From contig OX485808.1 of NCBI GenBank assembly GCA_950295325.1, positions 15,954,527 to 16,018,526 on the forward strand: a stretch of DNA of 64,000 bases, in the 5' to 3' direction. Positions 2,573 through 23,506 of the stretch are shown piece by piece (position 1 is the stretch's first letter; every line of letters begins with the position of its first letter). The notes under the pieces were generated by a model that searched no databases, had not been told where the DNA came from, and worked only from the letters and a program-made list of their open reading frames with translations. Source of the DNA: Polytrichum commune. Taxonomy: Eukaryota; Streptophyta; Polytrichopsida; Polytrichales; Polytrichaceae. The translations under genes and the position numbers were made by a program.

Positions 2573-2760
2573 GCGGGATTCTTGACCATTGTTTGCCACC
2601 CCCCAAGTTGACTAGGCCAAATACCAATAGTCGGTATTCCAATCAATACCATTGGTATGGATCCTATTGCATCCATAATGCCATCCATCGGTGGATGGGT
2701 AATGTGGTGGCCTTGGTTATTCTCCATGCTCGCATCTCCCTTTGGCAATTTTTTTTGCCA

Positions 2761-3068
2761 ACTACACTAAATAGGATATTTAGTGTTTGATACACTAAAT
2801 ATCAATAACCCTATGAATGTAAGCAACATTAAATGTAAACTCAAACACTAAATAACAACTATGGTAATATGTGGAAGTTACATGTTTGAATTTAGTGTTA
2901 GTAAGGACATGAAAAAAAAGGACATAATAAGGGAAGTGGCAGCAGGGAAGGTAGCGGCACATTTATGTCTAACACTAATTATCAAGGAATTGAAAATTGG
3001 TGTTGAGCACGGTAGGGCGGTAACGACATTAAATATAATCAAACACTAAATATCTTATTTAGTGTAGT
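2761..3068. mobile_element. 308-bp MITE with 31-bp inverted ends
   Basis: The first 31 bases (starting ACTACACTAAATA) and the reverse complement of the last 31 bases (3038-3068) differ at one position only. Each arm is itself partly palindromic, because ATTTAGTGT is the complement of ACACTAAAT. The interior repeats the CACTAAAT motif and has no convincing coding frame. I cannot define a target duplication: the flanks read GCCA on the left and GGTA on the right. A CACTA-like or other non-autonomous DNA element is likely; the superfamily is open. Confidence 0.75.
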
Positions 3069-3239
3069 GGTACGACCAAAGTTTGTCAAAGCAATATGAG
3101 GGGATGGTTGGGCCGGGTGGGTAAAGGGGCACGCATGCTAATGATAGCACCGACCAATCAGGCGCCCATGCGGGGTATTGTTGGGGCCCGCCTTGCAAAG
3201 TGTTGCAGCAACATAACCTTCGAAGTCGGAGTCCGTTGT

Positions 3240-4760
3240 TCAACCACCTATTGGATAAGATGGTCTACCTTGCAATGGACTTGGGTGTGCCACAATGTTG
3301 GGCGTGCCTTTGCCATGTGGAACGGGAATGGGTGGTCTAGTCTTTATAGGTTGCCGACTTGGTGTTGGCAACATAGGAGGGGGGACATTATTGGGCAATG
3401 AATGAATATGAGAAGCAGATAATTGGACATTATTCACATCCATCAAGTTGCCATCATCTTGAACATCATCATCCATGTTGAGTTTGGCTATAACGTTTTC
3501 ATGCACACCATGTTCAAGTTCGACCAGGACATTGGGTATTATTGTTGTTGGCACAATGGGTATGGCCATTGTTGATACAATGAATATTGCCGATGTTGGT
3601 GTAGAGGGATGCACAGTCATGTTTGAGAGAAATTCCCGATCAATAATGTAAGACCACATGTGAAGCTCATCGCCGTCCGCAACATCATCATTGTCAAATG
3701 AAAACATATCATTGTCAAGGGATTGTCAAGGCCCAAGTTCCCTCCGTTGTGCTTGCCGTCACTATTGATGTCCAAAGGCACCAAAGAATCTATGCCAAGT
3801 CCCGCCGGTAGGGGATAGTTTATATCCTCGGCACCAAGTAGTTGGATTCTTCAAACAACATGTTCATTAGATACCATGTGGCCGAGTCATGGTCCACCCT
3901 CTCCCCCACCAACTGTGCATTGGTATAAATATAAACAAAATTTTCAGCCCTAGCCAAACTCAACTAGTTCCTAGCCTTGTTATGCAATAATGAATAACTA
4001 GAACTCCTTTCACACAACAAACATAACATTATTCAGATCCATAACAATGTTATGTGGGATTGACAATATTCCATGTAGTATTCCCGGATATTCCCCACAT
4101 TCAGACTTGGGCCATTATACAATTGGTCAAAGGGGCCAAAAGTGTGTCATCTTTGCCCACAATGTCCCACCAATCGTGGGGTGGAATGTTAGTTTTCATG
4201 GCTAGAGACATATTGGCAAATGCATTTTTATGCTCCTAAAAATCTTGAAATTTTCCACAACCCAACTGTAATGAATGTCAATGCATGTGATCAACCTTCT
4301 CATGACATCCAAGAATCATGATTTAATAATAACTCCTTCATGGATGCTAAGGTCATCTAGTAAATATGGATTGAACATTGTGCCTGCATGGTGGAGGTTT
4401 GTGGTCATCATAAGCTACCAACAATAGAAACCTTTTTCGGCCAACATGACAAGGTTGCGGGCTAAATTAGAAGGTTGATTTCTAATGCTAAGCACATATT
4501 TTTCCAAGTTCTTCATCATCAACCAAGCCTTGCCCACTTTGCGTCATCCAATCCTCTTAGTGTTTTCAAAACCTCCTCAAACATGTGGCAATAATTGTCG
4601 CAACTAGCCCAAGAATTGTTGTTTGTTGTTCACATTTGACTTGAGTTGACATGCCTCAATGACACTTATCCTCCGATAATCACTCCCTTGACTCAACATA
4701 TTCATGTAGGCGGTGCAATCTAGATGTATGATCATTTTTCCCAATGCATGTCTGACCTTA
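3240..4760 (-). pseudogene. Decayed hAT transposase (C-terminal half)
   Basis: Read on the minus strand with several frame changes, this stretch gives pieces typical of plant hAT transposases in the right order. A segment near 4,300-4,450 contains NLHHAGTMFNPYLLDD, similar to the HHAG..LNPY motif before the dimerisation domain. Near 4,150-4,230 there is PPHDWWDIVGKD. Near 3,930-4,030 a different frame gives CERSSSYSLLHNKARN followed by LSLARAENFVYIYTNAQL, the hAT dimerisation motif. An open frame at 3240-3707 encodes an acidic, Pro-rich tail. Stops and frameshifts interrupt the region, so no functional product is expected. Its boundaries are uncertain because I found no terminal inverted repeats or 8-bp duplication. 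Confidence 0.7.
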
Positions 4761-5355
4761 GAGGACAAATATTTAACTTATTGAAAATTAAAATTTTACA
4801 ATGTAGTAAAACCAAATCAAACCTAACGGAAACCTTTCAACTAATTGGGAAATTACACCAAGGAGGCTAAGAGTTTTATGGTTGGCAAACATGCACGGCA
4901 ACTCTGTAACCAAGGTTATGACTCAATTCTCTATGTATGGGAGGATAATAAATTTTGGACCATGGGCTTAGAACTTTTATGCAAAGTCAACATGGGGAGT
5001 TGCATTGACTTGACTAGCACAAGGTATCAAATGCAGATGAACGATGTGAGGTGGAATGAGCTCGTGGATTGCTAGAGATTTGAGATTAAGGACAGTATTA
5101 AGAGAGTTTAGTTTTTTTTTAGTTTTTTTTAGTTTTTTTAAAATAATTATAGTAAAGGGGGTTTCATAGATCTAGTAGGCATATATCATTGACATGAACT
5201 TGTTTGAATATATATATAAATATATATCTCACCTTTTGTTATGGTCCAACACTTTTCTTTCTTGAATATTAACAAATGTTGGCTCTTCTCTCATTTTGCA
5301 TTTGATGTTCCTTAAATCCATATGCCGATCCACATATAGAGTTTGTTTGTAAACA

Positions 5356-5545: not shown

Positions 5546-6259
5546 GCAACCGACTGGGGAAAGTCGATTGCTACTGTGGAAGTTGACTAAGGAGACGACT
5601 ATGCAAAAAAAAAAACAACTGACTAGAGGATCGGCAACTTATGCGCAGTCGATTCTTATTGTGATAGTTGACTACAAAGTCGACTACTAATGGGAGCAGT
5701 CGACTCTATAGTCATGTTCATTTTCACATCCTTGGTTGAGTAATATTATATTGGGTTTGAGCAATTCTTAGAATGCAAACTATCATCCTATAATCTATCA
5801 TTTATAAGTGCTTGGAGGCTATCATATTGGATGAAAATTGTGAAATTATATCAAAAACTCAAATAACTTTTCATCATGCTCATGAGCAATATGTGGTGGC
5901 CTTCAATAAAAATTACTTCACATGCATGTTTATGACATCTTAAAGTCTTTGATTTCATTTTACTTGTAACTAGCCATCAAGGCTCACGTGGTGAGAGGGA
6001 ATTGTTGCACCTTTCAACTTAAACATATGTCTATTGCCACATATGTATGCACCGTTTTAACATGTTGGATGAAAATGTTTACACTTTGCGCATGTGAAAT
6101 GTTGAACTTGACTATGTATAAACTTACAAATTTTCACTTCTCATGAGGCATTTTCAATGTGTTTAGTTGGAGGAGACATGATTTAAGTGTTGATGATGCT
6201 TACTAGGTAGACCCTAGCATGCATCTTTCACTCCCTTGAACCTTCAGCTTGACTCTTAA

Positions 6260-6859
6260 CCCCTAAAGCACCATAAGGCCCCCAGGGGGCTTTTGATTGT
6301 AGAAAAGTGCAAATTGGATGAGATTGTTCCAAAGAAGCCCAAATTTGCGGGGAGAGGACCCTGGCTGTTTTTGCAAGATGGATCCAATGGTCTTTTCCGA
6401 TCAGAAAATGATGAAGGATTGGATTTTTGGCGAATTCTTTGAGTGAACAAAAATTTCAGTTTTTGGGCCCAATCTCATTGCTTGGAGACTTCAGAGTGCC
6501 ATATCTTTTTTTCCACACCTCAAAATTTGACGAAAAAAATTCCGCATGAGGGTCATAATGTTCTTTACATGTGGTAAAAATTTGAGATGTTTTGGAGCAC
6601 TTCTAAGCAATCTGATTCCAACATAAGTACGAAGTACCCCCTGCCTGAACAATTTCCATCAATCTTCTCAACGGTGGCAATTTCTCAGAAATTGTGCGAT
6701 CTTGTTGATCTTTTTTTCATAAACAAGCTATGTAAGTCTTCTTTAGTTTCAACGGTGCCGATCATGAAAATTACCCCACACTAATAAGAAATTGAGCTTG
6801 CTACAAGAGCTAATCAAGAAAACATGACCTAAGCTAAAACACCCCCGGTCCTTTAGGGG
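6260..6859. mobile_element. 600-bp element with TTAA at both ends (piggyBac-like candidate)
   Basis: The element is bounded by TTAA on both sides (6256-6259 and 6860-6863). Its ends are 13-bp inverted repeats, CCCCTAAAGCACC on the left and the complement of CCCCTAAAGGACC on the right, with one mismatch. A TTAA target duplication and ends starting CCC are the classic marks of the piggyBac superfamily. The interior has no convincing transposase frame, so it would be non-autonomous. An alternative is a Harbinger-type MITE with a degenerate TTA/TAA duplication, since that group is common in this window. Confidence 0.6.
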
Positions 6860-7089
6860 TTAACCATCTTCAGTTTTATTATTTTTTACCTATCAACACA
6901 AGTATATGAGTCTTAGACCCATCTTTGACAATTTCTCTACTTCACTAAGAAAATAGCCTACATCATTGAAAAATTTGTAAATCTACCACAAGGATAGATT
7001 TGTATATTTCTCTCACCAATGCAGGATAATTGCCGAAGGTATATATGTTGGTAGTGTATATTCATAATTTGTTGAATGGTCATTAATTT

Positions 7090-7951
7090 GCTAATGGGAA
7101 GGCCTTTACAGAGTCAGAGGCACCAATACACTTGTTCCGAAGGTGTTCAATAGGATTCATGTCGGGGAGTTGTGGACTCAATGGCAATATTATGATTGTG
7201 TGATCATTGAATCATTTGACTATTAACATATTGGTATGCTTTGCTTGTTATCATGTTGGAACACCCACTCCTCTGCTTCTTTTCTAAACTTCACAATTGA
7301 CATGCTCAAGTTATCTTATAAGATGTTCTAATAATGCTTGCTATTCATTTTCTCTTCAATTATGGATAGCTCCCCAACCCCCTCCCAACTCACACAACCC
7401 CAAATCATGATGCTTCATAGTCTTACTAACCACATGATTTCTTAGGCGTTCCCCAAGCCTCTTGCAACACAACTCTTGACCATTAGACCCCACATTGTTG
7501 AATGTACTTTCATATGAGAATACGACTTTCCTCCACTACTCCTATGCTCTTTTTCCCATTCATGCCTTAAGTATTTGTGTCGATCCAAAAGGAGAGGCTT
7601 CTTCTTCTTAATTGCATACCATAGTCATTGGCATTTTAATGCTCTTCTTATTGTGATAAAGGAAGTTGTGTAATTTGACACCTCTCGAACAACCCTATGA
7701 AATTTTATTGTAGTTCTATGCTCATTTGTTTGCACCAATCCAGCCAAGTAACAATCATCCCTCTCACTAAGACTACGCAGATGCCTTGACCTTCCCTTAT
7801 CCTCTAGCTCCCCCGTAGTTCCATAACATTTAATGATGTAACTAACTGTCAATGACATTGTTCCTAGTTTCTTGGCTATTGTACGACAACTTTGTTGTTC
7901 AATGTGGAGGGCAATAACTTGTACACGAATTTCTAAGGAAGTTTTAGGCAC
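7090..7951 (-). pseudogene. Decayed Tc1-like (Tc1/mariner) transposase
   Basis: The first 108 codons (7951 down to 7625) stay open and read as the paired helix-turn-helix N-terminus of a Tc1-type transposase: RVQVIALHIEQQSCRTIAKK, then TVSYIIKCYGTTGELEDKGR and LSERDDCYLAGLVQ. Below 7620 the frame shifts repeatedly, but the catalytic-domain order survives. It contains KKPLLLDRHK-like sequence, then a counterpart of the DESKFN motif with Asp changed to Tyr (YESTFN), a G-rich GLCELGGGWGAI segment, and finally PLSPQLPDMNPIEHLRNKC, matching the NPIE(N/H)LW region near the last catalytic Asp/Glu. The first codon is not ATG. The copy is inactive. Terminal repeats were not identified with confidence; a 12-bp inverted pair AATTTGTTGAAT lies at 7066-7077 and 8048-8059. 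Confidence 0.8.
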
Positions 7952-8064
7952 ATTGGAAGGGGGAATTAAACCAAAGGACCTTGTGAATGCAAAGCAAAAG
8001 TGTTAACCAGTGAGCTATTGCATACTATAACGTGGATTGATTATGTAATTCAACAAATTTGAAG

Positions 8065-22164: not shown

Positions 22165-23506
22165 CAGGGCATAAAATTGACACCCTGGGGGGTGTATTTT
22201 GCTTCCTAGAGTGTCCTAGGACACCCAAATCTCAAACAGGGTGTCCCCGAGGACACCCAAAAATCCTACAAGGGTGTCCTTTTTACACCCAAAAAAAATT
22301 CAGGGTGTCCCTTGTACTTGTAGGGCCTATCAACATATATGTTTGACAAAGTTTTTGCAAGTTTTTCTTTTTTGACACGCAAAAACTTGCACAAAAAAAA
22401 ATGCACGTCAATTGACACGCACATTCTAGAAATTGACACGTACTGTGACTTGTGAAGAAAAAAATCACACGTCAATTGACACACTAGAAATTGAAATGAC
22501 ATGTATTACTTGAGTACTATAAAGTGCAGCTCAAGTATCCGGAAAACATAACCCATAACAGTAGGAGAACTTCCTACACTCACTCACATACTTAAGTTCA
22601 ACTTTGCTCTTGCAATTTCCTTTGTAACCGGGAGCTAGGACGGTGAATGGAGAGCGAGACTAACTAGGAACATGGCGAGGCAAATGTTTCTATCACAGTG
22701 GTGCCTCCACATCCTCCACTCAATATGAGTATTTTCTTGCTTCCAACCAATGTGAGTTTTTCTTGATGTTCAACCAAAACTGTTTTGAGCAATTCCCTTT
22801 GAATCACATGCTTTTAGCCCTGTCTGTTTTTCAACAGACTTGACACTTCTTCATCGAAATGCTCATTTATGGCTTCAGAGTTTCATTGACCACTTCTGCA
22901 CTAATGGAGGGAATCTTTTTGATGAGCGTGGTTTAAAATCAGAGCTTCGAGGTTTTTTGGATACACTTCATATTTCATGTGGTGGTCTTAGAATGCACCA
23001 AGCTTGGATGGTTTATTCTTCCAATTTGGACTATGTTGGAAGATATCCTCATATGACAAAGTTGTGGCAAGCTGTTCTTGTAATTCCTGCTAGTACAACT
23101 TCTTGTGAGAGAGGATTTTCTACTCAAAATCATATTAAATCTACTTTACGGTGTAGTTTGGTATTAGAGACTTTGGAAGCACAAATGAGAGTTGCAATGG
23201 CAAAAATCCCCATTGAGGCCATTGACTTTGAACAAGTATGGGTAAAGTGGTGTGCTATGAAAGGCCGCCGCTTGTAGGTTTGATTTGCATTGCAAGTTAT
23301 GATATGTAGTGATTTTTTTTATTTTTAATTAAAATTTTGAAATGATATTATATATTTTTCAAAATTGTAGCTATTTTGACCAAAAAAAAATTTAAGAGAA
23401 ATTTATGAGGACACTCAAAAATTGGAGCAGGGTGTCCTTGGGACACCCAAAATTTGGGACAGGGTGTCCCCTGGAAATTTGGCTAGGGTGTCAAATTTAT
23501 GGCCTG
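22165..23506 (+). mobile_element. hAT element with perfect 8-bp target duplication
   Basis: The element is flanked on both sides by AGGAGGAC (22157-22164 and 23507-23514), the 8-bp duplication diagnostic of hAT insertion. Its ends are inverted: CAGGGCATAAAATTGACACC on the left and the complement of CAGGCCATAAATTTGACACC on the right. Many copies of GGGTGTCC and its complement GGACACCC lie just inside both ends (22180-22310 and 23405-23500), as subterminal transposase-binding repeats do. A CTATAAAG box near 22518 could be its promoter. At 1342 bp with only the C-terminal part of a transposase, it is an internally deleted, non-autonomous copy. Confidence 0.92.
22838..23277 (+). pseudogene. hAT transposase, C-terminal exon only
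   Basis: An open frame of about 145 codons follows a good splice acceptor (TTTTTCAACAG) and ends at a stop at 23275-23277. It contains the hAT dimerisation signature: a tryptophan-rich lead (HMTKLWQAVLVIP), then ASTTSCERGFSTQNHIKS and an alpha-helical LVLETLEAQMRVAM. The pattern is closer to the hAT group resembling animal ZNF862/KIAA1586-like proteins than to Ac or Tag1. The N-terminal BED finger and most of the catalytic core are absent from the element, so it encodes a fragment only. The frame itself is uninterrupted, so the insertion may be young. Confidence 0.88.

Follow-up and report, generated by a model that had tools for sequence, protein, structure and literature searches.

The window, i.e. 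the whole 64,000-nucleotide stretch of moss DNA analysed (contig C6), includes a 608-bp element at positions 6256-6863 that we consider, with a probability of about 97%, to be a non-coding MITE of the piggyBac superfamily in the moss nuclear genome. The element is bounded by TTAA at either end, its 13-bp inverted ends mismatch at a single position, and the ends including TTAA form 17 nt at 94% complementarity. Its parts are as follows.

6256-6259, no strand: 5' copy of the TTAA target-site duplication (window sequence, copies, empty sites)
6260-6272, + strand: 5' terminal inverted repeat (TIR) CCCCTAAAGCACC, family consensus CCCCTAAAGGACC (copy comparison)
6279-6289, no strand: subterminal palindrome CCCCCAGGGGG adjoining the 5' TIR (read from the sequence)
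6256-6444, + strand: left part, 94% identical to bases 1-189 of both 5,744-bp piggyBac elements
6444-6454, + strand: internal-deletion junction, with AGT at both breakpoints and one extra G
6446-6863, + strand: right part, 95-96% identical to the last 418 bp of both 5,744-bp elements
6847-6859, + strand: 3' TIR GGTCCTTTAGGGG (copy comparison)
6860-6863, no strand: 3' copy of the TTAA target-site duplication (window sequence, copies)

Among the 294 TTAA sites of the 64-kb window, this was the sole pair with 13-bp ends at one mismatch or fewer, and also at two or fewer, when a spacing of up to 1.5 kb was allowed. Windows generated with an order-3 Markov model included such a pair at up to one mismatch in 0 of 200 cases and at up to two mismatches in 8 of 200, and chance pairing of the ends was rejected on the former count. 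The identical TTAA copies and 13-bp inverted ends starting with CCCC that the sequence-only reading had reported were therefore confirmed, with the one mismatch. This mismatch stems from the window copy, which has C in place of the G found in the 35-copy consensus, and the family consensus TIR is perfect over 14 bp (CCCCTAAAGGACCG). As in piggyBac, CCCCTAAAGGACCG is short and starts with CCC; in beetle piggyBac elements, CCCT is given as the most prevalent TIR start (PMC12732532). Besides the window copy, the palindrome CCCCCAGGGGG is present in the autonomous element and in the consensus of the family. No second MITE copy was found within the 64-kb window beyond short chance-level matches, and an Rfam scan of the window gave nothing at gathering scores.

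Other repeat and transposon-related sequences were seen in the window. A decayed Tc1-like transposase lies at 7100-8002 on the minus strand, where a 125-aa frame gives weak matches to HTH_SB and further HTH families, none of which reaches the cut-off, and the broken frames beside it read as Tc1-like in translation (by eye, without a database match). A hAT C-terminal dimerisation region (PF05699, 7.7e-08) was located at 22789-23274 on the plus strand. A repeat family of up to ~510 bp occurs on both strands at 16.4, 23.6, 33.1, 35.9 and 39.4 kb, with 83-90% identity.

The assignment to piggyBac is carried by two full-length elements of 5,744 bp (C2:2246614-2252357 and C7:39297137-39302880, completed with upstream stretches), which share 98.8% identity, carry exact TTAACCCCTAAAGGACC ends and lie between different flanks. 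The C2 element includes an open frame of 783 aa at element positions 2638-4986, with the first Met at residue 14 and a 2.6-kb stretch preceding the frame. In the C7 element, the transposase frame is broken into pieces of 626 and 117 aa. Over 3.5 kb, a third locus (L074) shows 94% identity, with five stops in its matched stretch.

Comparison of the window MITE with both full-length elements matched bases 1-189 at 94% and the last 418 bp at 95-96%, and in the right part 393 of 405 positions agreed between the MITE consensus and the first full-length element. The left side of the junction terminates in GAGT, and the sequence to its right derives from a CAGT stretch, so that AGT is common to both. 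In the MITE, AGT is followed by an additional G, and the commoner 599-bp class is nine bases shorter at the junction than the 608-bp form. The terminal identity with the 5,744-bp elements thus defines the MITE as an internal-deletion derivative. The family shows what is expected of a MITE, being short (598-610 bp in 35/35 copies), non-coding and multi-copy, with ends in common with a full-length element.

The 783-aa frame matched DDE_Tnp_1_7 (PF13843) at 1.4e-69, as the sole Pfam family at E≤0.01, with the DDE domain beginning at residue 308. In a phmmer comparison with solved structures, the transposase matched 6x67_C (E 3.7e-30), which is listed as ‘Transposase’ and which we take to be piggyBac, and piggyBat 9c0f_C (2.2e-28). 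Residues D449, D530 and D647 aligned with residues 268, 346 and 447 of 6x67_C, as judged by a hand count on the alignment, and were invariant in the seven moss transposases aligned (7 of the 30 loci fetched). All three predicted catalytic Asp residues of the DDD triad are present in the moss transposase. Likewise, C751, C754, C762, C765, C775 and H780 were invariant in 7/7. No Pfam domain match covered these C-terminal Cys/His residues, and their pattern is consistent with the Cys-rich, putatively zinc-binding domain of piggyBac. No relatives of the transposase were found in viral contigs, either with the single protein or with the seven-member alignment.

A genome search for DDE_Tnp_1_7 proteins, which the sequence-only reading had proposed as a check, gave at least 118 matches above the cut-off when 116 of 169 candidates were scored; two of these matches lie inside the 5.7-kb elements that have the MITE ends and terminal sequence. 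None of 14 control genomes had a PF13843 match. The matched PF13843 stretch was free of stops in 20 of the 30 loci fetched. Chlorophyll a/b-binding matches numbered 58 in the genome, fourteen of which, equal-scoring and within less than 100 kb (C5:1751760-1846160), make up a tandem LHCII array; psaA/psaB-type genes were seen on contig C8. In comparisons with PDB entries, the PsaB protein reached its top score of 1671.8 bits with 7ksq, 6l35/7xqp and 8htu, followed by 1634 with 9lut and ~1601 or lower with others. For the LHCII protein, 8htu and 7xqp ranked highest, apart from a first row (9vfj) without any individually significant stretch. The entries 7ksq, 6l35, 7xqp and 8htu come from the moss Physcomitrium. 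The plant host supposed in the sequence-only reading was thus borne out and is most likely a moss; the seven large contigs would also suit a chromosome number of seven in Polytrichaceae.

Kolobok and Sola3 also duplicate TTAA, and a MITE of one of these superfamilies could resemble piggyBac in this respect. However, the partner with identical ends and 94-96% terminal identity encodes a piggyBac DDE_Tnp_1_7 protein. With PF13843 as the only Pfam family in the partner frame at E≤0.01, an origin from Kolobok or Sola3 was rejected as very unlikely, as far as sequence can tell.

The longest open frames from the 30 loci were grouped by BLASTP, with a between-group identity of ~29-47% over the aligned parts. 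L058 and L075 belong to the L065 group as relatives at 49-58% identity. L048-L052, the proteins of which are 98.2-99.6% identical to that of L048, form a 564-aa group, with L055, L073 and L077 being ~77-79% identical in DNA over the longest pieces. Further groups are one of ~930 aa (L053 and others) and one of L062, L070, L071 and L072. The L048-L052 loci end in GGGCATTTAGGGGTTAA, and hence their TIR also starts with CCCCTAAA; the other end of these elements was not found in the sequence stretches searched.

The piggyBac MITE is one step of a size ladder. Six further members with the same ends were read, ranging in size from 366 to 1,782 bp. The 366- and 415-bp members have other deletions, those of 928, 929 and 1,259 bp contain an inner unit of ~330 bp in tandem, and the 1,782-bp member keeps 1.5 kb of the right part, including some of the transposase gene. 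Pairs of TTAACCCCTAAAGGACC ends spaced 925-930 bp apart numbered eight among 100 of 171 places listed (two read, the rest recognised by spacing), and the dimer form has therefore probably spread itself.

The assembly searched for copies comprises 407.8 Mb in 64 contigs, seven of which are 42-78 Mb long. The search listed 45 matches, with 40 of 95 candidates scored. Before counting, L002-L008 (which repeat L009-L015), L038-L041 (which start at base 15), both L043 pieces and four extra 3' fragments in L017 were dropped. The remaining 35 full-length copies are spread over all seven large contigs and have lengths of 599 bp (19 copies), 608 bp (7) or other values from 598 to 610 bp (9). Their divergence from the consensus is 0.5-2.5%, and the pairwise divergence is 1.0-4.5% (mean 2.8%). 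The exact 17-mer TTAACCCCTAAAGGACC occurred 79 + 92 times in the genome, and the reversed control 0 + 0 times.

The expectation that other copies would also be flanked by TTAA was borne out, with TTAA on both sides in 32 of the 35 and mostly unrelated flanks; when all 250-bp flanks were intercompared (E≤1e-3), three similar flank pairs were found, one of them within a single locus. In L012, L019 and L025, TTAA is missing at one end, which we read as later mutation.

Two local arrangements were seen. In L017 (C2:63706623-63709432), the last 136 bp of the MITE and the flank recur four further times at intervals of 400 bp, so that a MITE end has given rise to a tandem array. L038-L041 (C6:37.21-37.32 Mb) are four copies from base 15 with near-identical flanks, 35-41 kb apart, and are probably a segmental tandem duplication.

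One copy, L022, is inserted in a high-copy repeat, and both its flanks joined with one TTAA were used as an empty-site query, for which 40 of 619 candidates were scored. Two of the 40 scored rows were the occupied L022 locus itself; in the other 38, the repeat members are uninterrupted across the junction, with one match each at 77-84% identity. All six unoccupied paralogues read have a single 4-bp site (TTAA in one, CTAA in four and CAAA in one), and both sides are in line except for single-base gaps nearby in two. A seventh unoccupied site, in L003, reads CTAA. As exact TTAA occurs in just one of these six, the repeat member that received the insertion must have had a different sequence at this point. 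The single 4-bp site in unoccupied members indicates that TTAA was duplicated on insertion, as in piggyBac. The prediction that empty sites carry a single TTAA thus held for the single site in 6/6 read, though for the exact letters in one.

From the letters of the target-site duplication alone, a 4-bp duplication of TTAA looks the same as a 2-bp duplication of TA when the target is TTAA, and TTAA also contains TTA and TAA. A Harbinger/Tourist (TTA/TAA) or Tc1/mariner/Stowaway (TA) MITE could therefore be misread at a TTAA target, and for the TA type there is also the decayed Tc1-like frame ~0.8 kb away (window 7628-8002, minus strand). Against this stand the full TTAA on both sides in 32/35 copies with mostly unrelated flanks, the short CCCC ends and above all the piggyBac transposase encoded by the partner, which largely refutes both forms of this explanation. 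Membership of PIF/Harbinger (Tourist) was rejected on the same grounds, and the whole explanation is left with an exceedingly small probability. The TTA or TAA duplications with Harbinger-like ends, or the lack of copies, that the sequence-only reading had named as speaking against piggyBac were not seen.

A non-mobile dispersed repeat or segmental duplication, which would account for the few copies held by local duplications (four at C6:37.21-37.32 Mb and the 400-bp array at C2:63.707-63.709 Mb), is scarcely credible for the family, given 35 full-length copies on all seven large contigs with mostly unrelated flanks, which are bounded by TTAA except on one side in three of them, and given the existence of unoccupied sites; homologous flanks around most of the 35 copies were not seen, and plain duplication was rejected.

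For the piggyBac MITE, the following origin is proposed. A 5.7-kb piggyBac element lost its interior in a single deletion, which may have arisen when an interrupted event was repaired through microhomology, and the resulting MITE keeps ~189 bp of the left part and 418 bp of the right. The parent encodes the DDD transposase with the Cys-rich C-terminal end, and the MITE would then have been multiplied in trans by that transposase. Each event would consist of a cut at the TIRs and insertion at TTAA, with TTAA being duplicated. It may have been this particular transposase, of the L065 group, that moved the MITE. Movement was presumably by cut-and-paste with seamless excision, and the MITE and transposase may be active at present.

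In the literature, piggyBac is described as widespread in animals, fungi and protists and as occasional in plant genomes, e.g. red algae (2025; PMC12732532). Plants are named among its hosts in passages that give no detail (PMC3902484; PMC10813416), PiggyBac is listed among plant DNA transposon superfamilies (PMC10794571), and piggyBac appears in a table of superfamilies found in all groups studied (PMC4438587). No report of a native moss piggyBac was found among the papers listed for piggyBac with mosses, bryophytes and Selaginella, as judged by titles and the starts of abstracts. The family described here is a new piggyBac family of a known kind, from hosts in which the superfamily has been sparsely recorded.

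The at least 118 domain matches, several open-frame groups and matched full-length/MITE pair mean that a land plant can be a favourable host for piggyBac. The transposase groups, at least four in number and many with open frames, and one complete full-length/MITE pair suggest that piggyBac could be a thriving and possibly still active part of the moss genome and the first documented native system of its kind in a land plant, a proposal to which we give about even odds. Its presence in a moss could reflect either descent or horizontal transfer. In addition, markers are removed seamlessly from plants by means of piggyBac (PMC10794571; PMC12732532), and in some mosses native transposases with related ends might cross-react with it.

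Classical piggyBac features are a TTAA target duplication, short TIRs starting with CCC, a DDD transposase and a C-terminal Cys/His end. As far as can be predicted for its protein, the moss element resembles piggyBac (6x67/6x68) and piggyBat (9c0f) in each of these. It is unlike both in having 2.6 kb before the frame and a DDE domain only from residue 308, and at 5.7 kb it differs from the PB transposon, for which ~2472 bp is given (PMC10813416). Like the animal piggyBac MITEs described as mPok of Daphnia Pokey and coral MITEs, the moss MITE is a short non-coding piggyBac derivative, but it differs from them in its land-plant host and in a size ladder that includes tandem multimers of the ~330-bp inner unit. 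A land-plant piggyBac label is shared with the PiggyBac row (1230, 122417, 0.00) in a repeat table for the fern Ceratopteris (PMC6890710). The Ceratopteris record differs from the moss one in being a table row that does not show ends, target sites or transposase (PMC6890710).
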